This document shows, piece after piece, positions 1,328 through 20,190 of a DNA stretch of 64,000 nucleotides (positions are counted from its first letter, which is position 1; the number at the start of each line of letters is the position of its first letter). Location of the stretch: NCBI RefSeq assembly GCF_015752205.1, contig NZ_JADOVG010000001.1:310001-374000 (forward strand). The letters run 5' to 3'. This DNA is from Polaromonas sp. CG_9.7. GTDB taxonomy: Bacteria; Pseudomonadota; Gammaproteobacteria; Burkholderiales; Burkholderiaceae_C. Both the position numbers and the translations under genes were made by a program. The notes under the pieces are model-generated. The model ran no database searches. It saw only the letters and a list, made by a program, of their open reading frames with translations, and was not told the origin of the DNA.

Positions 1328-2059
1328 TCATTCGCTATGCGCATGCCGCCTGGACTGTCCCGCAAGGTTTTTGAATTGTTCGTCTGCAGCGCGAACGGCT
1401 GCAACAAACTGGATAATTTTCTCAAAGCTCTTGATGCCCTTGGACACCTCGACGCCTGAACTCACGTCAACGGCCAGCGTGGTACAGCGTGGCCTGACTT
1501 GCAAAATGCCATCGGTCACGTTTGCAGGCGTCAACCCACCAGACAAAACGAGGTGAGCGTTGACGCTTTGAGGAAGAAGTGACCAATTGAATGTTTTTCC
1601 GCCGCCGCCGTATCCTTCGACATGGGCGTCGAGCAAGATGGCTTGGGCTGATGAATAATCTTGAACATATTTTAAAAGATCAAAGCGCAGGATGCCCGCG
1701 TTGGGGTTTTCGTCCAGCGGGATGCGGGCAGCGCGCAAAAAGGGTCTGCCGGCCCTCAGGCATTCTTCGGGCGTCTCGTCACCATGAAATTGAACTATAG
1801 CGCACGGAATACGGGCGCACGCAGCTATTATTTTTGTAGTTTCTTCATTTACAAACAACAGCACTGGCGTGACAAACGGTGGCAGTCGACTGGCCAGTTC
1901 TGCGGCGCGCTCCAGGGTGACATGGCGGGCGCTGTGTGCGTACATGACCAAGCCGATGGCGTCAGCGCCCGCAGCTACGGCGGCATCGACGTCTTCCTCG
2001 CGGGTCAGGCCGCAGATCTTGATACGGGTACGGCTTGATGAGGGAAAATAAGTGGTCAT
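1328..2059 (-). CDS. trpF: phosphoribosylanthranilate isomerase
   Basis: Isomerises N-(5-phosphoribosyl)anthranilate to the carboxyphenylamino-deoxyribulose phosphate in tryptophan synthesis; single-domain TIM barrel. The catalytic cysteine is C16 in KICGLTR and the general acid D144 in ILLDAHVEGYGG; SGGL near residue 173 closes the phosphate site. I chose the ATG at 2059 because it forms ATGA with the truA stop; a TTG three codons upstream is less likely. Residues about 71-92 are encoded by a copy of the dispersed GCTAT-N7-ATAGC repeat (1784-1846), which gives a run of AT-rich codons (ACA AAA ATA ATA) unlike the rest of the gene. Confidence 0.95.
   Translation of the reverse strand: MTTYFPSSSRTRIKICGLTREEDVDAAVAAGADAIGLVMYAHSARHVTLERAAELASRLPPFVTPVLLFVNEETTKIIAACARIPCAIVQFHGDETPEECLRAGRPFLRAARIPLDENPNAGILRFDLLKYVQDYSSAQAILLDAHVEGYGGGGKTFNWSLLPQSVNAHLVLSGGLTPANVTDGILQVRPRCTTLAVDVSSGVEVSKGIKSFEKIIQFVAAVRAADEQFKNLAGQSRRHAHSE
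1784..1846 (-). repeat. dispersed ~60 bp repeat, copy inside trpF
   Basis: Read on the minus strand it begins ACTAC-AAAAATA-ATAGC and ends GCGCTATAG. The 19-mer CTACAAAAATAATAGCTGC (1821-1839) is identical to one inside the CoA lyase gene at 20015-20033. The copy is in frame and translates as TTKIIAACARIPCAIVQF. Confidence 0.75.
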
Positions 2060-2850
2060 GGCAGCCAATCATAAGCGGCCGTGCGCGACGGCAAGCCATG
2101 GCGCTCCTCATACACCGGACCCAGAAAATAAAGACCGTCGGGTGAAAAGGTGGGGGCGGCGGCATCACGCCGGCGGGCGGCCACCACGCCAGCCAGCCAC
2201 TCCGGCGGTTGGCTGCCCTGGCCAACAGCCAGCAGGCAGCCCATGATGTTGCGGATCATATGGTGCAGAAAAGCATTGGCCTCAAACTCGAAGCGCCAAT
2301 ACCGCGACCCGGCCCCAGCGCGCTGCGAAATCTCGATGCGGTTCATGGTCTTGACAGGGGACTTTGCCTGGCATTGCGCAGCCCGGAACGAACTGAAGTC
2401 GTGCTCGCCCATCAAGTGCAGGGCGGCTTGCCGCATGGCGTCGCCATCAAGCGGACGATAGACCCAGCCGACGCGCCCGGCTTCCACGCTGGGGCGCACC
2501 GGCGACTCCAGCACGACGTAGGCGTATCGGCGTGCAATGGCGCTGGCACGCGAGTGAAATTCATCGGGCACTGGCTGCGCCCACTGCACCGCAATGTCGC
2601 GGGGCAAAAAAGCATTGGTGCCGCGCACCCAGGAGGCGGTTTCGCGCTGCAGTGCAGTGTCGAAGTGCGCAACCTGCATCAGTGCATGAACGCCGGCATC
2701 GGTGCGCCCGGCGCACATCACGCGAACCGGTTGAACGGCAAACCGGCTCAAGGCCTTTTCCAGCTGGTCCTGAACCGTCCTGCCGGACAGCTGGCTCTGC
2801 CAGCCTTCGTAAGCGCTGCCGCTGTAGCTGATACCCAGGGCAATCCTCAC
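2056..2850 (-). CDS. truA: tRNA pseudouridine(38-40) synthase TruA
   Basis: Makes pseudouridine at positions 38-40 of the tRNA anticodon arm in the cytoplasm. The catalytic aspartate is D51 in AGRTDAGVHA, the signature of the TruA family; the N-terminal SYSGSAYEGWQ is also typical. At 264 residues it has normal length. It sits between fimV and trpF in an operon position common in Burkholderiales, and its TGA overlaps the trpF ATG. Confidence 0.96.
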   Translation of the reverse strand: MRIALGISYSGSAYEGWQSQLSGRTVQDQLEKALSRFAVQPVRVMCAGRTDAGVHALMQVAHFDTALQRETASWVRGTNAFLPRDIAVQWAQPVPDEFHSRASAIARRYAYVVLESPVRPSVEAGRVGWVYRPLDGDAMRQAALHLMGEHDFSSFRAAQCQAKSPVKTMNRIEISQRAGAGSRYWRFEFEANAFLHHMIRNIMGCLLAVGQGSQPPEWLAGVVAARRRDAAAPTFSPDGLYFLGPVYEERHGLPSRTAAYDWLP

Positions 2851-2892
2851 CGGCGTTGTCCCGTTGTTGAATGCGGGTACTTCAAGCGTTGT

Positions 2893-5469
2893 TCACGGCA
2901 AAGTATTGAGAAATGCTTGAGCCTTGAACTTCAAAGGACCTTTGGCTCGGGCCACGACCTCGTCAGCCAGTAACCTGGCACCTTCTGAATCGCCCAGAAT
3001 ACGGAATTCCTCGGCCAACAGAAACTTGATTTCAAGGGGATCTTTTTCCAGGTCGGTCATGACCGCTGCAGGAGGCTTGGTGGCCGGGCCTAGGTCCAGC
3101 GAAAGCGAATCCAGGTCAAACTCCAGCATGCCGCTGTGCACCACAGGCGTCATCGGTGCAATGGTTGCTTTCGGTTTAAATGGCTCAGTCGTGAAGTCCA
3201 GGCCATTGGCTGTCAGGTCGTTCCCCGAAGCAGGCAGTTCTACTGAAATGTGCAGAGGTTCTGTCGCTGGCGCAGTGGCTGCGATACTGTCCAGATTCAA
3301 ATCCAGATCCAGAAAAGCCGACGGAATGGCAATGTCGGGTGTCGGTTCGACTTTTGATTCTGAATAGGCGAGGGCACCTGCTGCCATTGGCGCTGGTGGC
3401 ATCAATTCAGTAGATGCTGCGCCTGCCGAAAAATCCAGATCCAGGTCCAAATCGAAGGCCTGCGGCTTTTTGACAACCGGGGCCAATCCCGCCAGAGCCT
3501 GCGGAAGGGTGTTGCTCAAAGGCATCAAACCAGAGTTGCGTCTTCCGGGCAAGCTGGGCGAAAAGCTGGCGCCAGACTGGTACATGGAATTGCTTGGCTC
3601 CAGTTCCCGGCCCAGCTGGCTGATATGAGACCACTCTTCGCCTTGACCACCCGTAAGCTTGAATGCTGGCAGTGCCGCATTTTCGAAGGCTTTATGATCG
3701 CGCCGTTTGGCATAGATTTCAAGCAGCTTGCTGTGAACCGCCAAACGCTCCGGGTGGGTCTGCAACGCTTCCCTGAGGATTTCTTCCGCCTGTTGGTCGC
3801 GGCCATAGGCCATGTAGACATCGGCTTCAGCCACTGGGTCCACATCGCCCGATGTATCCAGCTGGCTGGGTGAGTAAGAGATCGAAGAAGACTTTGGGGC
3901 ACGGCTTGCATTGGTATCGACACGCTCTCCACCACTGGCGCCAAAGAAGGAATCAGGCTGCTGGCGGCTGTCCAGAAATGAGCTGTCCTCAAGGCTGGGT
4001 CGTGCATTTTTCCGGTGGCGTGCAAATCCCAAGCCCGCCAGCAATGCCAGCAGTACGCCGCCGCCCAGTAGCAATGAGTTGTCCATGATCCAGGTGGTCA
4101 AACCCGGCTCAGGCTGTGCGACGGGAGGGGCTGTCAGTGAAGGCTGCTGGCCGACGGTATCAGGTTCGAGAGGTACAGGTGCGCTTGCAGATGGCATCGA
4201 CTCTGGGGCCAGCGCCTCGGACAGGGCCAGGGCCGAAGCGTCAGTTGCGGGTACTGTGGCGCTGGAGGCATTTAGCGCTGGCGCTGCTGAGATGGCAATT
4301 GCACCAGAAGAAGAAGGAGAGTCGCTGGCGCTTGAAGCCGAGAGTCCCGGCGCCGCGCTGCCTGCTCCGGCAATGACGGGTTGTGGATTCGAAGAGGTGT
4401 TATTTTTTAGCTGATCTGCAGTTCGGCTTGCTGCATCCCTGGCGATTTGTTCGTTGGACTGTAAGCCCTGAACCGCACCTTTTGAAAGCGTCAGCCGGTC
4501 GGGCGAGGCATTGGCCTGGGCGCGATCTTCGACCCTGGCCTGGACTTTTCCGTCAGCCTGACGGCCTGTGCTGTCAAGCTGGGTTGTCGGCACGCCGCTG
4601 GCGAGCTTGCGGCGGAAGGTGTTGAAATCCCGACTCTGGGCAACAAGGGTTTGCCTGGCTTCACCCGGTGAAACTGCATTGGCTGCCTGTTCGTCTGGAA
4701 TATCCACCACGGCGCCAGATTTGATCAGGTTGATGTTGCCGCCAGGGAATGCGTCAGGATTTCTTCTGAGCAGGGCCACCAGCATTTGGTCCAGCGACAC
4801 GCTGGCAGGCTTATTCTGAGCCGCAATCTTGCTGGCATTGTCTCCAGGCCTGACCGTGACCTGGCGGGCACCTGATGTGCTCTGGGCAGGAAGTGTTCTG
4901 ACAGCTTGCGGTTTGGACTCTGCCGACGCCTTGCGTGCAGCAGGCCGTTCATTTGAAAATGGCGTGTCCTGCCTGGAAGGAAGAGTGGATACGACCACCG
5001 GCGCGCGTGGCAGCACCGGTGCCGACGACACCAGTGGAGCACTGGTGTTTCGCAGGTTCGGGGGATCAAACAGCATCGTGTAGTCGCGAGTAACGCGTCC
5101 GGAAGCCCAACGGGCTTCAAGAACCAGGTCCACGAAGGGCTCGCCGATAGCGCGATTGCTGGTCAGGCGTAGATACGGTCTGCCATCTGCGCGTTTTTGC
5201 AGCCGGACATCGAGCCCTGAAGCGGCAGAAGAATATTCCAGTCCAGCCGCCCTGAAAACGTCGGCTCCTGCCACTCCGACCCGCAGGCTTGAGGCCTCTT
5301 CAGCGCTGAGATCAGAGATATCGATTTCTGCGCGCAAGGATTCGCCCAGTGCGGATTGAACCGTGACACGGCCCAAGGCCACAGCATGCGCTTCAAGACT
5401 TGCCAGACAGCCGAGCAATGCAATTGCGCTTGCCATGGCACCAATGCGCCAGCGACCAGGATGATTCAT
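2893..5469 (-). CDS. fimV: FimV/HubP-type polar hub protein
   Basis: Large inner-membrane, peptidoglycan-binding protein that organises the cell pole and supports type IV pilus assembly and twitching. I place the start at 5469, which gives a clean signal peptide ending LEAHA at about residue 28, followed by the FimV N-terminal domain (VALGRVTVQSALGESLRAEI). A LysM-like module (VRPGDNASKIAAQN) lies near residues 203-259, then a Ser/Ala/Pro-rich linker, one transmembrane helix near residue 465 (SLLLGGGVLLALLAGLGF), an acidic region with TPR-like repeats, and the conserved FimV C-terminal domain beginning DPLEIKFLLAEEFRILGD. An in-frame upstream start exists but would bury the signal peptide. 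Confidence 0.93.
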   Translation of the reverse strand: MNHPGRWRIGAMASAIALLGCLASLEAHAVALGRVTVQSALGESLRAEIDISDLSAEEASSLRVGVAGADVFRAAGLEYSSAASGLDVRLQKRADGRPYLRLTSNRAIGEPFVDLVLEARWASGRVTRDYTMLFDPPNLRNTSAPLVSSAPVLPRAPVVVSTLPSRQDTPFSNERPAARKASAESKPQAVRTLPAQSTSGARQVTVRPGDNASKIAAQNKPASVSLDQMLVALLRRNPDAFPGGNINLIKSGAVVDIPDEQAANAVSPGEARQTLVAQSRDFNTFRRKLASGVPTTQLDSTGRQADGKVQARVEDRAQANASPDRLTLSKGAVQGLQSNEQIARDAASRTADQLKNNTSSNPQPVIAGAGSAAPGLSASSASDSPSSSGAIAISAAPALNASSATVPATDASALALSEALAPESMPSASAPVPLEPDTVGQQPSLTAPPVAQPEPGLTTWIMDNSLLLGGGVLLALLAGLGFARHRKNARPSLEDSSFLDSRQQPDSFFGASGGERVDTNASRAPKSSSISYSPSQLDTSGDVDPVAEADVYMAYGRDQQAEEILREALQTHPERLAVHSKLLEIYAKRRDHKAFENAALPAFKLTGGQGEEWSHISQLGRELEPSNSMYQSGASFSPSLPGRRNSGLMPLSNTLPQALAGLAPVVKKPQAFDLDLDLDFSAGAASTELMPPAPMAAGALAYSESKVEPTPDIAIPSAFLDLDLNLDSIAATAPATEPLHISVELPASGNDLTANGLDFTTEPFKPKATIAPMTPVVHSGMLEFDLDSLSLDLGPATKPPAAVMTDLEKDPLEIKFLLAEEFRILGDSEGARLLADEVVARAKGPLKFKAQAFLNTLP

Positions 5470-5720
5470 GGAGTTCTGAGCTTCTGGAGCTCGGTCTGAT
5501 TGAAAAGTTTTAAGGCTTGTACGCACAAAAACCCCGGTGCTAATTTTGAAAACAACCTTAACAGCAAGATCTAATGCTAACAAATAATAACAATTGTTAA
5601 TTATTGATACTTTAATGCAGCATGGATATGCGTTTTGATGCTGTTGCTACAAGACAACGATATACAGCCGGCTGCCGCACTTCATGATTGTAGTTGCTCA
5701 GTTGTCTTGAAAAAAAGGAT
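5470..5720 (-). promoter_or_regulatory. AT-rich leader and likely promoter region of fimV
   Basis: The 251 bases between asd and fimV are much more AT-rich than the flanks. They contain a perfect 12 bp palindrome, TAACAATTGTTA, at 5588-5599. A separate promoter for fimV here is plausible. I could not identify a convincing -35/-10 pair or name a regulator for the palindrome. Confidence 0.3.
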
Positions 5721-6860
5721 TTATGCCTCGATCAGGATCCGCAGCATGCGCCGCAACGGCTCTGCAGCGCCCCAAAGCAGTTGGTCGCCAACTGTAAAGG
5801 CACCCAGGTATTCCGGTCCCATGGCCAGTTTGCGCAGGCGTCCAACCGGAATCTGCATGGTTCCCGTCACCGCCACCGGGGTCAGGTCCTTGATGGATGA
5901 CTCCCGTGTATTGGGTATCACTTTGACCCAGGCGTTGTCCGTCGCAATCATGGCTTCGATGTCGGCCAGCGGAACGTCTTTCCTGAGCTTGAAGGTCAAT
6001 GCCTGGCTGTGGCAACGCATTGCACCAATGCGCACGCAAAAACCGTCGACTGGCGTTTCAGCGGTGCCGAAGCTGGCACCCTGGCCCAGAATCTTGTTGG
6101 TTTCGGCACTGCCTTTCCATTCTTCCTTGCTCATGCCGTCGCCCAAGTCCTTGTCAATCCAGGGAATCAGGCTGCCGCCCAGCGGCACGCCGAAGTTGGC
6201 GGTTTCGCTGGCGCTGAGTGACTGTTGCTTGGCCAGGATGCGGCGGTCGATTTCCAGGATGGCCGATTTGGGGTCGTCCAGCAAGGACTTGACTTCGCTG
6301 TTGAGTGTGCCGTATTGGGTCAGCAGTTCGCGCATGTGCTGCGCGCCGCCGCCGGAAGCCGCCTGGTAGGTCATGCTGGTCATCCATTCAACCAGGCCGG
6401 CCTTGTACAGGGCGCCCACGCCCATCAGCATGCAGCTGACAGTGCAGTTGCCGCCTATCCAGTTGTTGCCGCCTTTGACCAGCGCGTTATGGATGACAGG
6501 CAGATTGACCGGGTCCAGCACGATAACCGCGTCATCGTTCATGCGCAGCGTTGAGGCGGCATCAATCCAGTGACCCGTCCAGCCGGCCGCGCGCAGTTTT
6601 GGGAACACTTCCGAGGTGTAGTCGCCGCCTTGTGTGCTCAGGATGATGTCGCACTTCTTGAGCGCTTCGATATCAAAGGCGTCTTGCAAGATGGTTTCGT
6701 TCCTGGCCTGCGCCGGAGCCTGGCCGCCAGCGTTTGAAGTCGAGAAGAAAACCGGTTCGATCAGTTCGAAGTCGCCTTCGGCCTGCATCCGGTCGATCAG
6801 GACCGAGCCGACCATGCCGCGCCAGCCAACGAGTCCTGTGAGATTGCCTTTGAGTTTCAT
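5721..6860 (-). CDS. asd: aspartate-semialdehyde dehydrogenase
   Basis: Reduces L-aspartyl phosphate to aspartate semialdehyde with NADPH, the branch-point step to lysine/diaminopimelate, threonine and methionine. The NADP-binding loop reads [10 protein letters not shown] (residues 12-21). The catalytic cysteine is C139 in [10 protein letters not shown], and [11 protein letters not shown] carries the conserved histidine. The length, 379 residues, and the GGNCTVS context match the proteobacterial E. coli-type enzyme. It follows leuB by 267 bases on the same strand. The pathway's first enzyme, LysC, is also in this window but far away at 46.2 kb. Confidence 0.96.
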
Positions 6861-6901
6861 GGGGTTGCCCTTAAAAAGTACGAAAAAATCGGCTTTTTGG
6901 C

Positions 6902-6918
6902 CCGGCTCATCGAGCCGG
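6902..6918 (-). other. short hairpin in the leader of asd
   Basis: CCGGCTC and GAGCCGG form a perfect seven-pair stem with a three-base loop. On the minus strand it is followed, about a dozen bases later, by a run of T (GATTTTTTCG) just upstream of asd. It could be a weak terminator or attenuator between leuB and asd; the T-run is too distant for a textbook terminator. Confidence 0.3.
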
Positions 6919-7127
6919 AGGGCACGACGAACCGGGCTTGTCAGCCTTTAATGGTGGTCGTTGGGGTGGTTGGTACAAAAGCCGGCACACCATGGCCTGC
7001 TGACAAAGCAGCGGAAAAGTTGGTGGTGACAAGGCCTTTACACATTTTCTTATTGTAACGAAGGCTGCCTTTTCCCTGGCTGACACGGCGCAGTTGCGCA
7101 GAAGTGGCCAGAAATAAATAGCAGACT

Positions 7128-8213
7128 TCAGCCCAAGGCCTTGACCACCGCATCGCCCATTTCCACGGTGCCGACTTGGGTAGTGCCTTTGCTGTGAATA
7201 TCCGGTGTTCGCAGCCCCTGGGTAAGAACGGAGTCCACGGCTTTTTCAATGCGTGCGGCGGCTTCTGGCTGGTTCAGGCTAAAGCGCAGCATCATGGCGG
7301 CGCTCAAAATGGTGGCCAGCGGATTGGCCACGCCTTTGCCTGCAATGTCAGGTGCGCTGCCGTGGCTCGGCTCGTACAAGCCCTGGTTTTTATCGTTCAG
7401 ACTGGCCGAGGGCAGCATGCCGATGGAGCCGGTCAGCATGGCGGCGGCGTCACTCAAAATATCGCCGAACATGTTGCCCGTCACCACCACGTCGAACTTT
7501 TTCGGCGCCTTGACCAGCTGCATGGCCGCGTTGTCCACATACATGTGGTCCAGCGCCACGTCGGGGTACTGAAGGCCGATCTCGGTGACGACGTCTTTCC
7601 ACAGCTGGAAGGTTTCCAATACATTGGCCTTGTCGACGCTGGTAACGCGTCCTTCGCCACCAGCGGCTTTGCGTTTGCGCGCTGCTTGGAAAGCGACATG
7701 CGCGATGCGTTCGATTTCCGGACGCGAATAGCGCATGGTGTCGAATGCTTCCTCGGCGCCAGGGAAATGGCCATCAGTTGCAATGCGCCGGCCACGCGGC
7801 TGGCCAAAATAAATGTCGCCGGTCAGCTCGCGGATGATGAGGATGTCCAGGCCCGACACCAGCTCGCGCTTCAGGCTCGACGCATCGACGAGTTGCGGGT
7901 AGCAGATGGCGGGGCGAAAGTTGGCGAAAAGGCCGAGGTTCTTGCGCAGGCCCAGAATGGCTTGCTCGGGACGCAAGGGTCTGTCCAGCGTGTCGTATTT
8001 CCAGTCGCCGACGGCGCCGAACAAAATGGCGTCTGCATCTTTGGCCAATTGGAGCGTGGCTTCGGGCAGTGGATGGCCGTGAACGTCAAAAGCAGCACCG
8101 CCCACCAGCGCGGATTCAGTTTCAAATTTCAGGTCCAGGGCCTTGAGCACCTTCACTGCTTCAGCGACGATTTCGGTGCCAATACCATCACCAGGAAGAA
8201 TTGCGATTTTCAT
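7128..8213 (-). CDS. leuB: 3-isopropylmalate dehydrogenase
   Basis: Oxidatively decarboxylates 3-isopropylmalate to 2-oxoisocaproate with NAD in leucine synthesis. The N-terminus [16 protein letters not shown] is typical; substrate-binding arginines lie in [13 protein letters not shown] and [14 protein letters not shown], and the metal/NAD region is [29 protein letters not shown]. It has 361 residues, normal length. It is separated from leuD by only 73 bases, nearly all of which are a copy of the dispersed repeat. Confidence 0.97.
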
Positions 8214-8216
8214 TAT

Positions 8217-8272
8217 TTACTATCTTATTTATAGCTGCTTGCGTCCGTAAGTATTGCGCAATAGCATGATTT
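8217..8272 (+). repeat. dispersed repeat copy between leuD and leuB
   Basis: Begins ACTAT-CTTATTT-ATAGC and continues CTGCTTGCG, then TTGCGCAATAGC. It fills the leuD-leuB gap almost exactly, so it would lie inside the polycistronic mRNA (there in reverse orientation). Confidence 0.65.
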
Positions 8273-8286
8273 CACTGTTTATTTTC

Positions 8287-8937
8287 TTAAACGGTAACCG
8301 TATGACTCAGCCATGGCTTGGCCGCAAGCCGTTCAGCTTCAAAGGCCTTGATCTTGTCGCTCTGCAACAGGGTCAGGCTGATGTCGTCAAAGCCGTTGAG
8401 CAGGCAATATTTACGGAAAGCCTGAACGTCGAAAGGCAGTTCCTCGCCCTGAGCCTTGACGATGACCTGGCGCTCCAGGTCAATCGTGAGCCGGTAGCCG
8501 GGAAAAGCGGCCACTTCGTCAAACAACTGCGCCACATGTGCTTCGGGCAGCACGATGGGCAGCAGGCCGTTCTTGAAACTGTTGTTGAAGAAAATGTCGG
8601 CGTAACTTGGCGCGATGATGGCGCGAAAGCCAAACTGGTCCAGCGCCCAGGGCGCATGCTCGCGCGACGATCCGCAGCCAAAGTTCTTGCGCGCCAGCAG
8701 GATGGAGGCGCCGGCATAGCGCGACTGGTTCAACACAAAATCAGGATTGGGCTTGCGGCTGTCCGGGTCCTGGCCCGGAAAACCAGCATCCAGGTAACGC
8801 CATTCGTCAAACAGATTGGGGCCGAAGCCGGTTTTTTTAATCGATTTGAGGAACTGCTTCGGGATGATGGCGTCGGTGTCGACGTTCTCGCGGTCCATCG
8901 GCGCCACAAGGCCTTCGTGTAAGGTGAATTTTTGCAT
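8287..8937 (-). CDS. leuD: 3-isopropylmalate dehydratase small subunit
   Basis: Small (swivelling-domain) subunit of isopropylmalate isomerase, which pairs with LeuC to interconvert 2- and 3-isopropylmalate. Diagnostic segments are [20 protein letters not shown] at residues 12-31, the [18 protein letters not shown] substrate loop, and the length of 216 residues. It starts 15 bases after the entericidin-like gene and belongs to the leuC-ecn-leuD-leuB transcript. Confidence 0.97.
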
Positions 8938-8952
8938 ACGTGTTTCAGCCTG

Positions 8953-9090
8953 TTATTTGGCCGCATTTGAAACGGCTGAACCGGCGCGCTGCACGTCCTG
9001 GCCAATGCCACGAACCGTGTTGCAGCCGGACAGTGCAAAGGTGGACAGCAAAGCGGCTGCAATCAGGAGTCTTGCGGTGATTTTTTTCAT
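8953..9090 (-). CDS. entericidin-family small lipoprotein
   Basis: A 45-residue protein starting MKKITARLLIAAALLSTFAL with a lipobox LSGC, so C23 would be lipidated after signal peptidase II cleavage. The mature part NTVRGIGQDVQRAGSAVSNAAK matches the entericidin EcnA/B pattern of a small amphipathic helix. The ATG at 9090 has a good ribosome site (AAAGGAA) eight bases upstream. It lies 22 bases after leuC and 15 before leuD. In E. coli entericidins form a toxin/antidote lipoprotein pair; here there is only one and its role is unknown. Confidence 0.85.
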   Translation of the reverse strand: MKKITARLLIAAALLSTFALSGCNTVRGIGQDVQRAGSAVSNAAK

Positions 9091-9112
9091 TGGGTATTCC
9101 TTTGGGGTAGCG

Positions 9113-11535: not shown

Positions 11536-11552
11536 CATCGCATATCGCGATG
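11536..11552. promoter_or_regulatory. inverted repeat at the LysR gene start, possible operator
   Basis: CATCGC and GCGATG are separated by five bases, directly upstream of the chosen LysR start. LysR proteins often bind such dyads at their own promoters. No effector or binding data can be read from sequence. Confidence 0.3.
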
Positions 11553-11725
11553 GATATCGATTTTGCTACAAGGATATTGGTTTTGTCATCGCTTTTGAAG
11601 ATGGGGAGCCTATCGACCTGAGATTTTTTAAAAATCTGTCGGACAGCTTGAAAATATGATGATTCAGGCAGTAACCGCATACCAGTAAAGAATAGTCTGC
11701 TATCAAAATAGAGATTTTTTTATAA

Positions 11726-11759
11726 AAAAGCCCGCCGAGGTGACCCTCGGCGGGCTTTT
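11726..11759 (-). terminator. rho-independent terminator after gltA
   Basis: A perfect 12 bp stem, AGCCCGCCGAGG with its complement, and the loop TGAC, at 11729-11756. On the minus strand it is followed by TTTTTTAT. It lies 26 bases after the gltA stop. A T-run on the plus side is also present, so it may act in both directions and shield the LysR-leu transcript from the sdh-gltA operon. Confidence 0.9.
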
Positions 11760-11784
11760 GCTAAAACCTGACTAACAACCGTTA

Positions 11785-13095
11785 TTAACGCTGTGCCATC
11801 GGCTTGACTTCACGCGTCGTGGAACCAACGAAGAGCTGACGTGGACGGCCGATCTTGTACTCGGGATCGCCGATCATTTCGTTCAACTGGGCCATCCAGC
11901 CGACATTGCGGGCCAGTGCAAAAACGGCGGTGAACAGCGGCACGGGAATGCCGATGGCGCGCTGCACGATACCCGAGTAGAAGTCCACGTTGGGGTAGAG
12001 CTTGCGGGAAACAAAGTAGTCGTCTTCCAGCGCAATTTTTTCCAACGCCATGGCCAACTTGAACAACGGATCGTTTTCAAGACCCATTTCCTGCAGCACT
12101 TCCTTGCAGGTTTCCTGCATCAGCTTGGCGCGCGGGTCATAGTTCTTGTAGACGCGGTGGCCAAATCCCATGAGCTTGACGCCAGAGTTCTTGTCCTTGA
12201 CCTGTTTGATGAATTCGCCGATATTCTCGACGCCGCCGTTCTTCTGGATGTCGCCCAGCATGTTCAGCGCTGCTTCGTTGGCACCGCCGTGCGCTGGCCC
12301 CCAAAGGCAGGCGACGCCGGCGGCAATGGCCGCGAACGGGTTGGTACCCGACGATCCGCACAGGCGAACCGTGGAGGTCGATGCGTTTTGTTCGTGGTCC
12401 GCATGCAGGATGAAGATGCGGTCCAGCGCGCGCTCAAGCACAGGGTTGACCTTGTACTCTTCGCACGGTGTGGCAAACATCATGTGCAGGAAATTGCCGG
12501 CGTAGCTCAGGTCGTTGCGCGGGTACATGTAGGGCTGGCCAACGGTGTACTTGTACGCCATGGACACCAGTGTCGGCATCTTGGCAATCAGGCGAATCGC
12601 GGCAATGTCGCGGTGCTCCGGATTGGTGATGTCGGTGCTGTCATGGTAGAACGCAGACAGCGCGCCAACCAGGCCGGTCATGATGGCCATTGGATGTGCG
12701 TCTCGACGAAATCCCCGCAGGAAGAACTGCATCTGCTCGTTGACCATGGTGTGGTTGGTCACGCGGCCGACAAAAACCTTTTTCTGTGCAGCATCCGGCA
12801 GTTCGCCGTAAAGCAACAGATGGCAGGTTTCCAAATAGTCGCAATTGGTCGCTAGCTGTTCGATGGGGTAACCACGGTACAACAATTCACCCTTGTCACC
12901 ATCAATATAGGTAATGCCCGACTGGCAAGCAGCCGTTGACAGGAAGCCCGGGTCATAGGTGAACATGCCGGTCTGGGCATACAGCTTGCGGATGTCCACA
13001 ACGTCCGGACCTACGGTACCTTGGTAAACCGGCAGGTCCACGTTGGGGCTGCCGTTGCTGAAGGACAGGGTGGCTTTGTTGTCAGCTAACTTCAT
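11785..13095 (-). CDS. gltA: citrate synthase
   Basis: Condenses acetyl-CoA and oxaloacetate to citrate. The catalytic residues are visible: the first histidine in [13 protein letters not shown], the second in [13 protein letters not shown] and the aspartate in NVDFYSGI. The 436-residue length and the N-terminal extension before [18 protein letters not shown] mark the hexameric, NADH-regulated Gram-negative type. Its start overlaps the end of sdhE by 14 bases. It is the last gene of the sdhCDAB-sdhE-gltA run and is followed by a strong terminator. Confidence 0.97.
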
Positions 13096-13438
13096 GTTCG
13101 TTTCTTTCTCTCTTGTCAGAGGAGGAGTTAGGGGGCCGCAGCATGCTTATAACTTCAAGTGCTTCGGGAGTGGAGGCACTTGCCTTGGCAAGTGCCTCTG
13201 AAAGTTGCTCAGGCTCCTTACGTCTGAGCAACAGGTCAAGCAAGTCGTTGTCAGACAAATCCATTAGATCATTCAAGCCTTTAGCCTGCCTGACATTGAG
13301 CGTGACTTCGAAAGTCTGAAAGAATTTTTCAATCAGCAGGTCGTTCTCCAGCAGGCCCCGGCGGCAGCGCCACCGCAGCTTGCTCAAGCTTCGCTCATCG
13401 AGCAGATCGTCGGTCATTTCCATCGGCCTGTAATTCAA
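13082..13438 (-). CDS. sdhE: FAD assembly factor SdhE
   Basis: Small helical protein of the YgfY/DUF339 family that promotes covalent attachment of FAD to SdhA. The family motif RGxxE is present in [19 protein letters not shown]. It is 118 residues with a longer C-terminal tail than the ~88-residue E. coli protein. It lies seven bases after sdhB and overlaps gltA by 14 bases, which fits its job of maturing the succinate dehydrogenase encoded just upstream. Confidence 0.93.
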
Positions 13439-13445
13439 CTCAATG

Positions 13446-14150
13446 TCAGACCGTGCGCAAAATCATCATTTCCTTGATCTTGCCGATGGCTTTGGCCGGA
13501 TTAAGGCCTTTGGGGCAAACATCAACGCAATTCATGATGGTGTGGCAGCGGAACAGGCGGTATGGGTCTTCAAGGTTGTCCAGCCGTTCAGCGGTAGCTT
13601 CATCACGGCTGTCGGCCAGGAAACGATAAGCTTGCAACAAGCCGGCCGGACCTACGAACTTGTCAGGATTCCACCAAAAGCTGGGGCATGCCGTGGAGCA
13701 ACTGGCGCACAAAATACATTCGTACAGGCCATTGAGTTCGTCGCGCTCTTCCGGGCTTTGCAGGCGCTCGGTCTGTGGCGGCACGTTGTTATTGATGAGG
13801 TAAGGCTTGATCGAGTTGTACTGCTTGAAGAATTGTGTCATGTCAACAAACAGGTCGCGCACTACCGGCAAGCCAGGCAACGGCTTGAGCACGATGGTGC
13901 CCTTCAGCGTGAGCATGTTGGTCAGGCAGGCCAAGCCGTTCTTGCCATTGATGTTCATGGCATCAGAGCCGCAAACACCTTCGCGACAGGAGCGGCGAAA
14001 GGAAATAGTGGGGTCCTGCGCCTTGAGCTTCATCAACGCATCGAGCAGCATGCGCTCGCTGCCGTCCAATTCGACCTCGATGGTCTGCATATAAGGTTTG
14101 GCGTCGGTATCAGGGTCGTAGCGGTAAATTTGAAAAGTACGTTTGGTCAT
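13446..14150 (-). CDS. sdhB: succinate dehydrogenase iron-sulfur subunit
   Basis: Electron-transfer subunit of complex II, carrying electrons from FAD in SdhA to quinone at SdhCD. The [2Fe-2S] ligands are in CREGVCGSDAMNI, and the [4Fe-4S] and [3Fe-4S] ligands in CILCASCSTACPSFWWNP and CHTIMNCVDVCPKGLNP. At 234 residues it is normal length. It starts 20 bases downstream of sdhA. Confidence 0.97.
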   Translation of the reverse strand: MTKRTFQIYRYDPDTDAKPYMQTIEVELDGSERMLLDALMKLKAQDPTISFRRSCREGVCGSDAMNINGKNGLACLTNMLTLKGTIVLKPLPGLPVVRDLFVDMTQFFKQYNSIKPYLINNNVPPQTERLQSPEERDELNGLYECILCASCSTACPSFWWNPDKFVGPAGLLQAYRFLADSRDEATAERLDNLEDPYRLFRCHTIMNCVDVCPKGLNPAKAIGKIKEMMILRTV

Positions 14151-14170
14151 GGGAATTCCTGCTTGTATTT

Positions 14171-15967
14171 TTAGAAGGAGCGAACTGTCAAAGGTATGGA
14201 TTCAACCGTCAAGGGTTTCATTTGCACCGGCTTATACGCCAAGCGGTTGTCTTCGCTGTACCAAAGAGTGTGTTTGTGCCAGTCGGTGTCATTGCGGCCG
14301 TTCGGATGTGCCGGTGTGTCTCCGTAGTCGTCTACGGAGTGGGCGCCGCGGCTTTCGTGGCGCGCTGCAGCAGAAATGATGGTGGCTTCAGCGGCTTCGA
14401 TCAGGTTCTCGACTTCCAGTGCTTCAATGCGCGCGGTATTGAAAATCTTGGACTTGTCTTTCAGGCCGATTGCATTGACGCGCTTGCGCAGTTCCGCAAT
14501 TTTGGCCACACCTTCATCCATGACGGCCTGGGTTCGGAACACGCCGGCATGCTGCTGCATGGCTGCACGGATGTCGTTGGCGACGTCCTGCGCGTATTCG
14601 CCAGTGGTTGCATTGTCCAGGCGTTCAATGCGGGCCATGGTTTTGTCTGCAGCATCAGCAGGCAAGGGCTTGTGCTCGGCATTGGCCTGGTTGAATTCAA
14701 CGATGTGGTTGCCAGCAGCACGGCCGAAGACCAGCAAATCGAGCAATGAATTTGTTCCCAGGCGATTGGCACCGTGTACGCTTGCGCAAGCGCACTCGCC
14801 AACAGCGTACAGGCCGTTGACCACCACGCTCTTGTTCTCGGCGTTCTGCGTGACGACTTGACCATGGATATTGGTCGGGATGCCGCCCATCTGGTAATGG
14901 ATGGTCGGCACGACCGGAATTGGTTCCTTGGTGATGTCGACGTTGGCAAAGTTGTGGCCAATCTCGAACACCGAAGGCAGACGCTTCATGATGGTCTCTA
15001 CGCCCAGGTGGGTCATGTCCAGGTTGATGTAGTCTTTGTTGGGGCCGCAACCTCGGCCTTCCTTGATTTCCTGGTCCATGCAGCGAGACACGTAATCACG
15101 CGGCGCCAAGTCCTTGTAGGCTGGCGCATAACGTTCCATGAAACGCTCGCCGTTGCTGTTGCGCAAAATGGCGCCTTCACCACGGCAGCCTTCGGTGAGC
15201 AGCACACCGGCACCGTGCACGCCTGTCGGATGGAACTGCCAGAATTCCATATCTTCCAGTGGAATGCCAGCGCGTGCGGCCATGCCCAGACCGTCCCCAG
15301 TATTGATAAACGCGTTGGTGGAAGCTGCAAAAATTCGGCCAGCGCCGCCGGTGGCAAGCAGCGTGGTCTTGGCTTCAAAAATATGCACGTCACCGGTTTC
15401 CATCTCGATGGCGGTAACGCCTACGACATCACCCTCGGCATCGCGGATCAGGTCCATTGCCAGCCATTCAACAAAAAAGCTGGTTTTTTCCTTGACATTT
15501 TGCTGGTATAGCGTGTGCAGCATGGCGTGACCAGTGCGGTCGGCGGCAGCGCAGGCGCGCTGAACCGGCTTTTCGCCGTAGTTGGCGGTGTGGCCACCGA
15601 ACGGACGCTGATAAATCGTTCCGTCGGGATTGCGGTCAAACGGCATGCCCATGTGCTCCAGGTCATAGACAACCTTCGGTGCTTCGCGGCACATGTATTC
15701 AATCGCATCCTGGTCGCCCAGCCAGTCGCCACCCTTGACGGTGTCGTAAAAATGGTAGTGCCAGTTGTCTTCGGACATGTTGCCCAGCGAGGCGCCAATG
15801 CCGCCTTGCGCCGCCACAGTGTGCGAACGGGTTGGGAACACTTTTGACAGCACGGCAACGTTCAAGCCAGCACGTGCCAGTTGCAGTGAAGCGCGCATGC
15901 CGGAGCCGCCGGCACCGACAATGACAACATCAAATTTACGCTTGGGAAGTTGGGAGGTAGCAGTCAT
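14171..15967 (-). CDS. sdhA: succinate dehydrogenase flavoprotein subunit
   Basis: Oxidises succinate to fumarate with covalently bound FAD. The dinucleotide fold GAGGSGMRASLQLA is at residues about 17-30, the flavinylated histidine is in SHTVAAQGG, and the substrate region HPTGVHGAGVLLTEGCRGEG is complete. 598 residues is typical. It lies between the sdhD anchor and sdhB in the usual order sdhC-sdhD-sdhA-sdhB. Confidence 0.98.
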   Translation of the reverse strand: MTATSQLPKRKFDVVIVGAGGSGMRASLQLARAGLNVAVLSKVFPTRSHTVAAQGGIGASLGNMSEDNWHYHFYDTVKGGDWLGDQDAIEYMCREAPKVVYDLEHMGMPFDRNPDGTIYQRPFGGHTANYGEKPVQRACAAADRTGHAMLHTLYQQNVKEKTSFFVEWLAMDLIRDAEGDVVGVTAIEMETGDVHIFEAKTTLLATGGAGRIFAASTNAFINTGDGLGMAARAGIPLEDMEFWQFHPTGVHGAGVLLTEGCRGEGAILRNSNGERFMERYAPAYKDLAPRDYVSRCMDQEIKEGRGCGPNKDYINLDMTHLGVETIMKRLPSVFEIGHNFANVDITKEPIPVVPTIHYQMGGIPTNIHGQVVTQNAENKSVVVNGLYAVGECACASVHGANRLGTNSLLDLLVFGRAAGNHIVEFNQANAEHKPLPADAADKTMARIERLDNATTGEYAQDVANDIRAAMQQHAGVFRTQAVMDEGVAKIAELRKRVNAIGLKDKSKIFNTARIEALEVENLIEAAEATIISAAARHESRGAHSVDDYGDTPAHPNGRNDTDWHKHTLWYSEDNRLAYKPVQMKPLTVESIPLTVRSF

Positions 15968-16027
15968 ATTCTTATAAATCTTGGAAGCTGGAAAATGCCA
16001 GCGTTGACCTTGGGGAAAGGCTGCGGA

Positions 16028-16393
16028 TCAAAGGCGCCACAGCACCTGGATACCCCAGCCTGCGCAGGCGATCAGCCAGAAGATGGTGAACACCTGCAGC
16101 AGCAAGCGCAGGCCTACCGGTTTGATGTAATCCATCCAGATGTCGCGCATGCCTACCCATACATGCTGAAGCATGGCAATGATGACCGCAAAGGTAAGAA
16201 CCTTCATCCATTGGGGGGAAAAGATCCCGGCCCACTGGTCATAGCCCATAGGTCCCTTGCTGAAAATGACTTGCCCCAGCAGCAGCAGGGTGAAAATGGC
16301 CATGAGAGCCGCAGTGATGCGTTGGCTCAGCCAGTCGCGGGTGCCGTAATGAGCGCCGACAACGATGCGCTTTGAGCCGTAATTGACAGACAT
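16028..16393 (-). CDS. sdhD: succinate dehydrogenase membrane anchor subunit
   Basis: Membrane subunit of complex II that, with SdhC, holds heme b and the ubiquinone site. The 121 residues show three hydrophobic helices: ITAALMAIFTLLLLGQVIF, a middle helix containing VIIAMLQHVWVGMRDIWMDY with the histidine expected to ligate heme, and a final helix LLLQVFTIFWLIACAGWG. Sequence conservation in this subunit is low, so the identification rests partly on position between sdhC and sdhA. Confidence 0.93.
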   Translation of the reverse strand: MSVNYGSKRIVVGAHYGTRDWLSQRITAALMAIFTLLLLGQVIFSKGPMGYDQWAGIFSPQWMKVLTFAVIIAMLQHVWVGMRDIWMDYIKPVGLRLLLQVFTIFWLIACAGWGIQVLWRL

Positions 16394-16462
16394 GATTTTT
16401 TTCCTTGATCAGAATGGAGGCAACGCTGGCTCTGCTAGCGCAGCAACCAGCCCGCGCACTTT

Positions 16463-16909
16463 TTAGTAGAGTCCGAACAGCTTGGCACCCAGCACCAGCG
16501 TGAGGCCAATGCTGACGATCAGCGTGAAGGCGGCTGATTGCTTGCCAAAAGTCTTGCTGACGGCTTCATGGCTGCTGTCCATCCACAAATGCCGGATACC
16601 CGCCAGGAAATGGTGCAGGTAAGCCCAGATCAGTGCCAGGGCCACCAGTTTCCAGAGCACGCCTGGCAAACCAAGCATGCCCGCATTGAAGGTGGATTTG
16701 AAGCGGTCAAAAGAGATGTCTGAAGAAATCGACGTATCAAACATCCAGATGATGAAAGGCATCAGCAGAAACATAATGGCTCCGCTAACACGGTGCAGGA
16801 TCGAAACAATTCCGGCCAGCGGCAGTCGGTAGCTTGGCAGGTCAGTAAAGGCATTGATGTTGCGGAACTCTGGCCGCTTGGGGCGTGGTGTAGATGCCAG
16901 CTCTGTCAT
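16463..16909 (-). CDS. sdhC: succinate dehydrogenase cytochrome b556 subunit
   Basis: The larger membrane anchor of complex II. The N-terminus RPKRPEFRNINAFTDLPSYRLPLAGIVSILHRVSG contains the conserved SILHRVSG quinone-site motif, and YLHHFLAGIRHLWMDSSH has the heme-ligating histidine. Three hydrophobic helices are seen in 148 residues. It is the first gene of the sdh operon; the 127 bases upstream separate it from the GntR gene on the same strand. Confidence 0.95.
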   Translation of the reverse strand: MTELASTPRPKRPEFRNINAFTDLPSYRLPLAGIVSILHRVSGAIMFLLMPFIIWMFDTSISSDISFDRFKSTFNAGMLGLPGVLWKLVALALIWAYLHHFLAGIRHLWMDSSHEAVSKTFGKQSAAFTLIVSIGLTLVLGAKLFGLY

Positions 16910-16994
16910 TTTTATGGGCTTTCGTGGTGGTAACCGGTTGGTAACTCAGCGGATCATGACTGTCCGTCGATCATTTTAATTCTATTGCAATGCA

Positions 16995-17008
16995 GCAAAT
17001 TTATTTGC
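16995..17008. promoter_or_regulatory. GCAAAT inverted repeat upstream of sdhC
   Basis: GCAAAT and ATTTGC separated by two bases, about 90 bases upstream of the sdhC start and within its probable promoter region. A similar palindrome, GCAAATTTGC, lies at 17844-17853 beside the GntR start. Both are preceded by CA, and the two could be sites for one regulator. Confidence 0.35.
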
Positions 17009-17036
17009 AAAGCGTTGCCTTTTTGGGGCAATGCTG

Positions 17037-17840
17037 CTAGCTGAGCACATTTTTATAGTGATGGGTGTCGGTTCGGTACAGGCCCCGGCGCAACTCCATC
17101 GGGATGTCGTTGTAGGTGTAAGCAATGCGTTCGACGCTCAATAGCGGTTCGCCCTGCTTCACATCCAGCAGCCTTGCCGCCACCGTATCGGCTGCGATGG
17201 CACGGATTTTTTCTTCGGCACGGACCATATGGACGCCAAACTCGGTTTCGAATAACGCATACATGGGCCCGCCGTAGACCGCCAGGCGGCTGGCAGTCAG
17301 ACCTTTGAAAGGGCCGCCCGGCAGCCAGACGTCCTCGACAATCGTGGGCGTCCCCTGGAATGACAGCACCCGGCGCAACTGAAGCACGGCGTCGCCGGTT
17401 CGCAGTGCCAAAGGGCGGGCGATGTCAGCCGTGGCCCGAATCCGCTTGCAGTCAACTATCTGGCGTTCCGCCGGGCCTTCGCTGCTGGTGTCACCGTTGT
17501 CCGGCATCAGCCGAAGGAAACGGTATTGCACCTGCTGCTCGGCGTGGGTGGCAACGAAGGTTCCCTTGCCCTGGCGACGGATCACCAGGTTTTCTGCGGC
17601 AAGTTCGTCAATGGCTTTTCGAACGGTTCCCTGACTGACGCGAAAGCGCGCAGCGAGTTCCATCTCGCTTGGAATCAGTGCGCCAGGCTTCCATTCAGCC
17701 GCTTGCAGTCCTTTGAGGATCAGTACCTTTATCTGCTGGTACAGCGGGCTGAATGCCGGGGTCTGTCCCGCAGGCGCGACGGTCTCCTGCTCGGCAGCTG
17801 CCATTGAGGTATCGGGTATTGAAGAATTGGTATTTGTCAT
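17037..17840 (-). CDS. GntR/UTRA (HutC-type) transcriptional regulator
   Basis: The N-terminal GntR winged helix spans residues about 30-97 (SPLYQQIKVLILKGLQAAEW, IPSEMELAARFRVSQGTVRK, then NLVIRRQGKGTFVATH). A UTRA ligand-binding domain follows, with the typical VERIAYTYNDIPMELRRGLY end. It is placed between the sdhCDAB operon (downstream, same strand) and the divergent mdh-acnB genes, so it is the obvious candidate regulator of the TCA genes on both sides. The ligand, presumably a dicarboxylate or related acid, is not determinable. Confidence 0.9.
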   Translation of the reverse strand: MTNTNSSIPDTSMAAAEQETVAPAGQTPAFSPLYQQIKVLILKGLQAAEWKPGALIPSEMELAARFRVSQGTVRKAIDELAAENLVIRRQGKGTFVATHAEQQVQYRFLRLMPDNGDTSSEGPAERQIVDCKRIRATADIARPLALRTGDAVLQLRRVLSFQGTPTIVEDVWLPGGPFKGLTASRLAVYGGPMYALFETEFGVHMVRAEEKIRAIAADTVAARLLDVKQGEPLLSVERIAYTYNDIPMELRRGLYRTDTHHYKNVLS

Positions 17841-17843
17841 ACA

Positions 17844-17853
17844 GCAAATTTGC
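17844..17853. promoter_or_regulatory. palindrome GCAAATTTGC next to the GntR start
   Basis: Perfect 10 bp palindrome three bases upstream of the GntR initiation codon, overlapping where its ribosome site would be. It may be an autoregulatory operator; it is related in sequence to the inverted repeat at 16995-17008 upstream of sdhC. Confidence 0.35.
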
Positions 17854-17916
17854 GCAGCGACCTGTGATCATGGGGCGCAGCGCCTGAGCCGGACATGAAA
17901 ATATGCCTTGATCATA

Positions 17917-17928
17917 TCTTATATAAGA
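17917..17928. promoter_or_regulatory. palindrome TCTTATATAAGA, candidate GntR operator
   Basis: Perfect 12 bp palindrome in the GntR-mdh divergent control region. It is followed by a second ATAAGAC half-site (the tandem ATAAGACATAAGAC at 17923-17936). It ends 11 bases before the likely -35 box of mdh, a position from which a bound regulator could affect both directions. Assignment to the adjacent GntR protein is inference. Confidence 0.5.
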
Positions 17929-17939
17929 CATAAGACAAG

Positions 17940-17969
17940 TTGACCTGACGCGATTTTCAAGCGTAAAAT
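17940..17969 (+). promoter_or_regulatory. likely sigma-70 promoter of mdh
   Basis: TTGACC (17940-17945) and TAAAAT (17964-17969) are separated by 18 bases, about 150 bases before the mdh start. It is the best match to the consensus in the divergent region. Confidence 0.5.
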
Positions 17970-18116
17970 CCCGGGTTGTGCATCGTACGGACCTTGTTTG
18001 TTGATTTTGTTAGAAAAGACGCTGCTCTCATGGTCCGGCAAAGCTTGAATTTGCGACGCAAACCCTGTGTCATTTTCTGTCCAATCATTTTTTAACCTTC
18101 CTTGGAGTTGTCAGTC

Positions 18117-19103
18117 ATGAGCAAAAAACCCGTACGTGTTGCAGTTACCGGTGCTGCCGGTCAAATCGGTTATGCGCTGCTGTTTCGCATTGCCTCGGGC
18201 GAAATGCTTGGCAAGGACCAGCCGGTGATTTTGCAATTGCTTGAAGTGCCAGTAGAAGGCCCGCAAAAAGCGCTTAAGGGCGTGATGATGGAAATCGACG
18301 ATTGCGCGTTCCCGCTGCTGGTTGAGATGACTGCCCACAGCGACCCGATGACCGCCTTCAAGGATGCCGATTACGCCTTGCTGGTCGGCTCGCGTCCGCG
18401 CGGCCCTGGCATGGAGCGTGCCGAGCTGTTGGCTGTCAATGGCGCGATTTTCACGGCACAGGGCAAGGCACTCAATGACGTTGCCAGCCGCGACGTGCGT
18501 GTGCTGGTGGTTGGCAACCCCGCCAACACCAATGCCTATATCGCCATGAAGAGCGCGCCTGACCTGCCACGAAAGAACTTCACCGCCATGCTGCGCCTGG
18601 ACCACAACCGCGCTGCCAGCCAGATCGCTGCCAAGACCGGCAAGGCCGTGGCCGACATCGAAAAATTGACGGTCTGGGGCAACCACTCGCCCACCATGTA
18701 CGCCGACTACCGATTTGCCACCATCAACGGTGAAAGCGTCGCCCAGATGGTCAATGACCAGGAATGGAACGCCAATACCTTCCTGCCGACCGTTGGCAAG
18801 CGCGGCGCTGCCATCATTGAAGCGCGCGGTTCCTCATCGGCTGCATCGGCTGCCAACGCCGCCATTGACCACATGCGGGACTGGGCGCTCGGCACCAATG
18901 GCAAGTGGGTCACGATGGGTATTCCATCCGATGGCCAATACGGTATTCCAAAGGACACGATGTTCGGTTTCCCCGTGACCTGCGAAAACGGTGAATACAA
19001 GATTGTTGAGGGCCTGGAAATTGATGCATTCAGCCAGGAACGCATCAACAAGACGCTGGAAGAGTTGCAGGGCGAACAAGCCGGCGTCGCACACCTTCTG
19101 TAA
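18117..19103 (+). CDS. mdh: malate dehydrogenase
   Basis: NAD-dependent oxidation of malate to oxaloacetate. The nucleotide fold [15 protein letters not shown], the [12 protein letters not shown] segment and the catalytic histidine in [15 protein letters not shown] place it in the 328-residue cytosolic-type Mdh usual in betaproteobacteria. The ATG at 18117 has TTGGAG ten bases upstream; an in-frame TTG at 18102 would start inside that site. It is the first gene of the divergent TCA arm. Confidence 0.97.
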
Positions 19104-19200
19104 TAGCCAGCCGGAAAATCGGGGGGCGTTGTCAATATCGTTGCGATGCCCACCCAACTCCCGAGCCATTGGTCATCGTCCCCAGAACCAAGTTTATTCA

Positions 19201-20190
19201 ATGACACATCCGCGCGAAGTTCTCCTCGGCGCTCAGGCCGCAGCGGCTTTTTTGCCCGTTTGCGACCATTACAGCGGTGTGGAAGCGCGGATGCGCAAAA
19301 GCTTGCAGTTGCAGGCAGAAATGATCGAGGAGTTCGGCGCCTGCGTGTTCGACGTGACACTGGACTGTGAAGATGGCGCGCCGGTCGGCGGTGAAGCCGA
19401 CCATGCCGCCATGGTGGTGTCGCTCGCCGCATTGGCTGGCGACAAGGCCCGCGTCGCCGTTAGGGTGCATGCAGTTGGCCACCCGGCTTTTGACTCTGAC
19501 ATGGCCGTTATTGCCGGAAAACTTGGCAACCAGCTCTCACACATCATGGTTCCCAAGGTGGAATCCATCGATGACGTGATCAAGGCCGAGCAAGCGCTGC
19601 TGGCTGCATCGGCCGGGAATTTACCCCTGCATGTGCTGATCGAGTCCCCCCTTGCCGTTCGCAATGCCTTTGACATTGCCGCACACCCCCGCGTCCAGTC
19701 GCTCAGCTTTGGCCTGATGGACTTTGTCTCCAGCCATGGTGGCGCGATTCCTGCCGATGGCATGGACAGCCAGGGCCAGTTCACCCATCCGCTGGTCGTG
19801 CGCGCCAAACTTGAAATCGCTTCCGCCTGTCATGCTTATGGCAAGGTGCCTTCACATTGCGTGGTGACGGAATTCAACGATGCCACGGCCATGACGCTCG
19901 CCGCGCGGCGAGCCTCGCGTGAACTGGGCTACACCCGAATGTGGAGCATTCATCCAAATCAGATACGCTTCATTTTGGCGGCTTTTGCCCCAAGTGAGGA
20001 TGAAATTGGAAATGCTACAAAAATAATAGCTGCTGCTGCCCTTGTGGATTGGGCTCCCATTAGTTTTGATGGTAAATTGCATGACAGGGCGAGTTATCGC
20101 TATTTTTGGCAGGTGCTGGAGCGAGCCCACCAGACGGGCCGCACCCTGCCGCCTGACGCTCAAACTTATTTTACGGATGCTCCTGGATGA
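19201..20190 (+). CDS. CitE-like HpcH/HpaI-family CoA ester lyase
   Basis: A TIM-barrel lyase of the citrate-lyase-beta/malyl-CoA-lyase superfamily, 329 residues. Recognisable elements are the acidic metal site [43 protein letters not shown] and [14 protein letters not shown], and the end segment [18 protein letters not shown]. Its substrate cannot be named from sequence; similar genes next to mdh are common in this order. The start at 19201 gives the family N-terminus [19 protein letters not shown]. Residues about 270-290 are encoded by a copy of the dispersed repeat and use AT-rich codons. Confidence 0.85.
20010..20072 (+). repeat. dispersed repeat, copy inside the CoA lyase gene
   Basis: Begins GCTAC-AAAAATA-ATAGC, continues TGCTGCTGCCC, and ends CATTAGTTTTGATGG. 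It is in frame ([21 protein letters not shown]) and in the same reading frame as the trpF copy; 19 bases are identical to that copy. Confidence 0.75.

Follow-up and report, generated by a model that had tools for sequence, protein, structure and literature searches.

Two unrelated genes in a 64,000-nucleotide stretch of Polaromonas sp. CG_9.7 (contig NZ_JADOVG010000001.1, positions 310,001 to 374,000; hereafter the window) share a 19-bp sequence read in the same frame, which raises the question of how the same DNA came to serve as coding sequence in both trpF, encoding phosphoribosylanthranilate isomerase, and a gene for a CoA lyase of the citrate lyase beta type. The sequence, CTACAAAAATAATAGCTGC, was found at 1821-1839 on the minus strand and at 20015-20033 on the plus strand with zero mismatches at either place, and is translated as TKIIAA in both genes, as a first-pass annotation of this DNA had described. 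No further match with three or fewer mismatches was present elsewhere in the window, and 100 shuffles gave 0. A third exact copy was found in the genome (G000:C7:73741-73759) at the 3' end of a gene on the opposite strand (L003:1484-2605), which we take to be cobD/cbiB. The 19-mer is the left part of a wider motif of 68 bp that is dispersed inside and outside genes and, in the genes tested, recurs at orthologous positions; in the presumed cobD/cbiB gene, the motif encodes most of the C-terminal 28 residues. We tentatively favor the reading, drawn by analogy, that this is an uptake-sequence-like DNA motif kept in place by a factor that would recognize DNA, likeliest in the uptake and recombination of self-DNA.

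The model of the motif was built from 23 aligned copies of 68 positions, 20 of them found by their core in genome loci and three taken from the window; one lies within a gene (L009, the same as L137 4802) and two lie at gene edges (L007 and L012). The trpF, lyase and third copies of the 19-mer were left out of the model, which fitted the trpF and lyase sites across all 68 positions with 31.6 bits (E 1.2e-8) and 27.5 bits (E 3.9e-7), respectively, both E-values being rough because of a short calibration. These findings bear out the earlier statements that trpF and the lyase gene contain members of a single repeat family, read in the same frame, and that the flanking bases follow the repeat, since 68 of 68 positions were matched by an independent model. 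The coordinates of both instances and of the other copies in the window are listed in Table 1.

When 826 kb of sequence (contigs C1 and C2, 20% of the genome) was searched, 104 copies were found, approximately one per 8 kb; they were kept from 132 model rows after removal by hand of 23 rows under 17.6 bits and five weaker overlapping rows on the opposite strand. Sixty-eight copies were intergenic, 26 were wholly inside predicted genes and 10 were at gene edges, the gene calls being those of our own simple codon-score script and not of a standard gene caller; at least one of the 26 in-gene copies (L161 11910) is doubtful as a gene call. The whole genome contained at least 150 copies (all 150 scored candidates passed). 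The copies were mostly 30-50% G+C, and the information in the motif amounted to approximately 60 bits (59.9 bits in 63 copies), spread along the 68 bp. Conserved blocks were seen near columns 3-6, 9-11, 14-19, 26-27, 38-44, 53-55 and 63-64, the outer limits were sharp, and three palindromic parts were visible. These blocks were much alike in 63 intergenic and 24 in-gene copies, a likeness qualified by the detection of both sets with the same model. The gaps between 100 copies were more even than random, with coefficients of variation of 0.67 and 0.68 compared to 0.97 and 0.98 (P = 0.0045 and 0.0025), under a uniform random model into which the preference for spacers was not built. There was no clear strand bias among the 100 copies (49 and 51 overall, 25/20 and 24/31 per contig). 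The density of copies was highest in convergent spacers (1.49 per kb) compared to tandem (0.53 per kb) and divergent spacers (0.37 per kb). Of the repeat-free intervals, considered as possible mobile DNA, the five longest listed contained mostly ordinary genes, one of them with transposase-like fragments as judged by eye.

Sequence comparison showed that the trpF and lyase sites are separate instances of one DNA motif and that neither was copied from the other. The trpF site shared a mean identity of 0.78 (minimum 0.71) with the orthologous sites of 18 motif-rich species, compared to a mean of 0.48 (maximum 0.62) with 99 other copies in its own genome; two motif-rich genomes that have no trpF instance, G017 and G024, were excluded from the former mean. 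Likewise, the lyase site showed a mean identity of 0.81 (minimum 0.74) with orthologous sites in 22 species and of 0.48 (maximum 0.66) with other copies in its own genome. Recent copying of one repeat into both genes was therefore rejected, since each site resembles its orthologues more than it does any of the remaining copies, and the earlier suggestion that the repeat had replaced native codons, read as a recent copying event in this genome, is unsupported. Among the 21 species compared, trpF and lyase agreed at 19 of 19 positions in this one alone, whereas the other 20 motif-rich Polaromonas, among them G017 and G024, had 8 to 18 of 19; the striking identity is thus what one motif in one frame can yield twice.

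The presence of the in-gene sites followed the abundance of the motif in the rest of the genome. By model matches per genome, 41 Polaromonas genomes were split into a motif-rich and a motif-poor group, the copy numbers of the rich group being lower bounds (at least 125 at the top); strain JS666 had five matches. The association was scored for each gene in the 30 genomes, of 37, for which the locus was returned. For trpF, 19 of the 21 rich genomes and none of the nine poor ones had a site score above 0 bits; for the lyase, a score above 12 bits was reached in 22 of 23 rich and 0 of 7 poor genomes. At the lyase site, the scores were at least 12.7 bits in those 22 rich genomes and at most 4.6 bits in all seven poor ones, two of which were at 4.6; with a threshold of 0 bits, the counts were 22 of 23 and 2 of 7, respectively. 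In the poor species, the orthologues of lyase site 20013-20080 still scored above the rest of the gene, and this may reflect either a relic or a pre-adapted spot. Among all in-gene sites that could be aligned, 16 of 16 scored above 0 bits in rich relatives (seven genes, including trpF and lyase) compared to 1 of 42 in poor relatives (17 other genes). In-gene instances are thus nearly always missing where the genome is without the motif elsewhere.

This pattern extended beyond the genus, the trpF site being found also in motif-rich Rhodoferax, Acidovorax, Comamonas and Ramlibacter. In a second set of 38 genomes, hand-picked from 80 loci and belonging by title mostly to other genera, 15 of the 19 rich genomes and one of the 19 poor ones had the site; when five genomes with trpF identical to first-set genomes were removed, it was present in 15 of 17 and 1 of 16, respectively. 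The exceptions in the second set were four rich genomes without the site and one poor genome, Rhodoferax S03, that carries it. The first-pass annotation had held that shared residues and codons in distant genera would reduce the match to an ancestral coincidence. The occurrence of the trpF site in these four genera does speak against a recent origin, but the match is no coincidence, the presence of the site following the motif genome-wide. On a tree comprising 21 rich and six poor species (27 in all), the poor G003 and JS666 were placed among rich species and three changes were needed, bootstrap range included. In the wider family, at least one match was found in 50 of 120 sampled genomes and at least six matches in 42 of 120.

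To what extent the coding sequences carry the motif was seen with a weight matrix from the 23 copies: across 736 predicted genes, 36 positions scored above 0 bits. The reversed motif gave 0 positions in the same genes, and five column-permuted motifs gave 0, 1, 0, 0 and 0. Synonymous shuffling and recoding of the genes left 11.9 and 10.1 positions, respectively; therefore, residues and synonymous codons both carry the motif. In single copies, recoding gave P < 0.01 in 26 of 26, values that are inflated because the copies were picked for high scores; the doubtful L161 11910, one of the 26, scored -48.9. Ten in-gene copies were oriented forward and were divided equally between two phases; of the 16 backward copies, 15 shared one phase and the last was in another. 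In the forward phase that would turn the TAG within ATAGC into a stop codon, all five copies read GAGC, with G for T in column 15. This change was found in 0 of the 5 copies in the other forward phase and in 2 of the 15 in the common backward phase, where there is no stop to explain it; the stop-making forward register was open in only 1 of 67 intergenic copies. Synonymous conservation, measured on same-residue codons in motif-rich species, was exceptional at the lyase site, which was reached by 1 of 278 windows of that gene.

The earlier claim that neither protein is longer at the site was upheld. No insertion or deletion was found at the site in codon alignments of trpF and lyase from 30 Polaromonas genomes each, four extra residues in the trpF of G015 lying just past it. 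The trpF site was ungapped against all four solved homologues shown and the lyase site against the closest two of four, the other two being approximately three residues longer. Unchanged length at the site thus stands for these two genes and fails as a general rule. Eighteen other in-gene sites were searched in three motif-poor Polaromonas (JS666, G003 and G013), and 17 genes gave at least one spanning alignment, for a total of 42 pairs. Net length was unchanged in 22 of the 42 (11 of 16 for JS666, 6 of 10 for G003 and 5 of 16 for G013), and the five unequal sites against JS666 differed by -1, -1, -4, +5 and -19 residues. These sites are length-variable parts of proteins, or some have been inserted or deleted. 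The strongest in-gene copy, at L137 4802-4869 (C1:264802-264869; 70 bits), is also carried by two rich relatives and looks the most insertion-like.

According to the reading favored here, a trans-acting factor would read the motif as DNA rather than as RNA or protein, and, in permissive regions of proteins, in-gene instances would be created and maintained through substitution or homologous replacement. The factor would most likely act in self-DNA recognition during uptake and recombination, as with the DNA uptake sequences (DUS) of Neisseriaceae and the uptake signal sequences (USS) of Pasteurellaceae, a role proposed by analogy only.

Several results weigh against this reading. Two motif-rich Polaromonas (G017 and G024) are without the trpF site, the genomes compared are related so that the rich/poor associations are not independent trials, and the well-supported branches of the tree alone force only one change. 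The choice of register is more than a matter of openness, because no in-gene copy uses either of two registers in which 15 and 16, respectively, of the 67 intergenic copies are open. Synonymous conservation of the trpF site was ordinary, 57 of 105 windows reaching it; the higher G+C of the rest of trpF may mask an effect, and the result was counted as negative. The 22 of 42 length-neutral comparisons contrast with 1096 of 1217 for same-size windows elsewhere in the same alignments, an excess of length change that fits permissive linkers and fits insertion too, and the protein containing L137 4802-4869 is 19-20 residues longer than in the poor G031 and G013. Because of this length control, confidence in the DNA-level and chromosome-protein readings, and in that of a novel self-DNA mark discussed below, was lowered and that in insertion was raised. 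Between genes, the 15 spacers in which a copy is present here but absent from JS666 had a median excess of 91 nt over those of JS666 (range -138 to +422), compared to a median difference of 0 for the 161 spacers that lack the motif in both genomes; this fits insertion here or deletion in JS666 alike. No competence factor was found to discriminate the groups among the two searched, ComEC (35 of 41 genomes) and PilQ (41 of 41, 37 over the cut-off) occurring in rich and poor alike, and both were rejected as the gene that sets them apart. Finally, the motif, with its 68 bp and approximately 60 bits spread along that length, is far longer than DUS and USS with their some 10-12 bp, and its density of about one copy per 8 kb is sparser than theirs.

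A binding site for a chromosome-organizing or other DNA-binding protein unrelated to uptake fits the same facts nearly as well. Even spacing on equal strands, conserved blocks along the whole 68 bp, the loss of in-gene copies together with the others, and the failure of ComEC and PilQ to track the motif are all consistent with such a site. There is, however, no candidate protein, and the two contigs lacked the clear strand bias expected of translocase guides, if not of all such sites; we regard this explanation as somewhat unlikely. Rather unlikely, too, in our judgment is a small mobile repeat of the kind of repetitive extragenic palindromes (REP) or miniature inverted-repeat transposable elements (MITE), with in-gene copies that would be old insertions later trimmed. 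It is most plausible for intergenic copies, and the longer copy-bearing spacers, the greater length variation at in-gene sites, the 19-20 additional residues that go with L137 4802-4869 and the presence of a Y1-type transposase in 40 of 41 genomes are in its favor. The gene for this transposase-like protein is mostly of approximately 240-280 residues. Against mobility stand the ungapped alignments with solved homologues (all four for trpF, the closest two of four for the lyase), the finding that 11 of 16 other in-gene sites have the same length as in JS666 and two more are off by one residue, spacer differences of no one size that deletion in JS666 would also explain, and a spacing more even than random. 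Moreover, Y1_Tnp, the one transposase family searched, occurs in poor genomes as well and so is not restricted to carriers. A search for empty intergenic sites in rich relatives offered too few cases (20 of 196 spacers with a copy in either genome).

A role in RNA, as a terminator or an element of mRNA 3' ends with the in-gene copies as by-products, would agree with the high density in convergent spacers and with the palindromic parts, and three of eight copies folded better than shuffles (z -2.8 to -4.2). The other five folded at z -1.8 or weaker, no double change was seen in 11 pairs among 23 copies, and mismatched partners were common among 63 copies. The lack of covarying partners and the weak folding point to a DNA target. 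With no Rfam match in the five motif loci searched and in-gene copies in both orientations, an RNA role is improbable. That the codons of two conserved protein segments agree by mere chance is scarcely credible, and we consider it refuted by the controls. TKIIAA does fit a family pattern, with EKILDVA in 1lbm and TEILLAA in 3r4i, but the match extends over the full 68 positions, control motifs gave almost nothing, and since in-gene presence tracks the motif genome-wide, the agreement between trpF and lyase is no coincidence.

The motif shares features with several known families of repeats. Rickettsia palindromic elements are in-frame repeats in protein genes that arise as insertions. The present repeat is likewise found in frame within protein genes, but trpF and lyase are not lengthened and the other in-gene copies are mixed, L137 4802 being one that would fit. 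Like REP, bacterial interspersed mosaic elements (BIME) and MITE, it is dispersed, has palindromic parts, lies mostly between genes and occurs in spacers longer than those of JS666; unlike them, it has 26 of 104 copies in genes and is spaced more evenly than random. Uptake sequences occur in hundreds of copies, also in genes, where they lie in permissive regions of core genes, according to the available text of PMC2397512 and PMC2346458. In these terms the motif resembles DUS and USS in that its copies are scattered over either strand, lie between genes as well as in permissive parts of genes, and are conserved in position (PMC2397512; PMC2346458), and differs in that its presence is independent of ComEC or PilQ. 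The beta-proteobacterial repeat element (BRE) is described, in the part of PMC3110155 available, as an element of approximately 90 bp and high G+C (69% in Bordetella), often in tandem, which occurs in Comamonadaceae including Polaromonas, with 29 copies in JS666 and some copies in coding sequence. Occurrence in Polaromonas and partly in coding sequence is common to both, whereas the motif is mostly 30-50% G+C and has only the five JS666 matches, so that the two are set apart by the description of BRE and not by its sequence (PMC3110155, as available). No description of the 68-bp motif was found in the literature searched, subscription journals being mostly outside it, and six short core subsequences used as text queries returned no paper on these bacteria by title.

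Table 1. Host genes and copies of the 68-bp motif in the window (positions from the first nucleotide of the window)
Feature	Position	Strand	Remarks
trpF, phosphoribosylanthranilate isomerase	1328..2068	-	open reading frame taken from first possible start
Motif instance in trpF, 68 positions	1774..1841	-	gene-sense orientation; encodes TTKIIAACARIPCAIVQFHGDE; 31.6 bits
19-mer in trpF	1821..1839	-	exact match
Intergenic motif copy	8218..8285	+	63.4 bits; part of model set
CoA lyase, citrate lyase beta type	19201..20190	+	under NCBIfam cut-offs; best solved match 3r4i
Motif instance in lyase gene	20013..20080	+	gene-sense orientation; encodes 22 residues; 27.5 bits
19-mer in lyase	20015..20033	+	exact match
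Motif copy, mostly intergenic	36103..36170	+	32.8 bits; 20-nt overlap with 3' end of gene
Weak motif copy	41222..41289	-	17.6 bits; E 0.0015, E 0.019 in larger search
Motif copy in convergent spacer	54419..54486	-	44.2 bits; overlaps both gene ends, by 9 nt and 14 nt (murI)
murI, glutamate racemase	54473..55354	-	gene
Motif instance in murI, full length	54742..54809	-	26.2 bits
Intergenic motif copy	59878..59945	+	45.3 bits
Intergenic motif copy	62245..62312	+	63.1 bits; part of model set
Intergenic motif copy	63417..63484	+	39.8 bits; part of model set

Four related genes lie in tandem on the minus strand at 59938-63978 (repeat family D1, approximately 75% identity), and the spacers beside them hold the three motif copies that start at 59878, 62245 and 63417. 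Two adjoining similar stretches (D4 and D8) at 37849-38762 suggest a tandem duplication.

Identical in-frame stretches in unrelated genes, such as those of trpF and the CoA lyase, need not be copies of each other. Two bacterial families provide the best-known examples of sequence-specific genome marks that lie within genes. It is possible, if doubtful, that the 68-bp motif adds a third kind, unrelated to these: a genome-wide mark of self-DNA that stays in place in housekeeping genes in spite of codon preference and disappears from genes in lineages that lose the system. If it were true, a long mark with carriers and non-carriers in one genus would allow tests of what places such marks in genes, of how far proteins yield to selection at the level of DNA and of what factor reads the marks.

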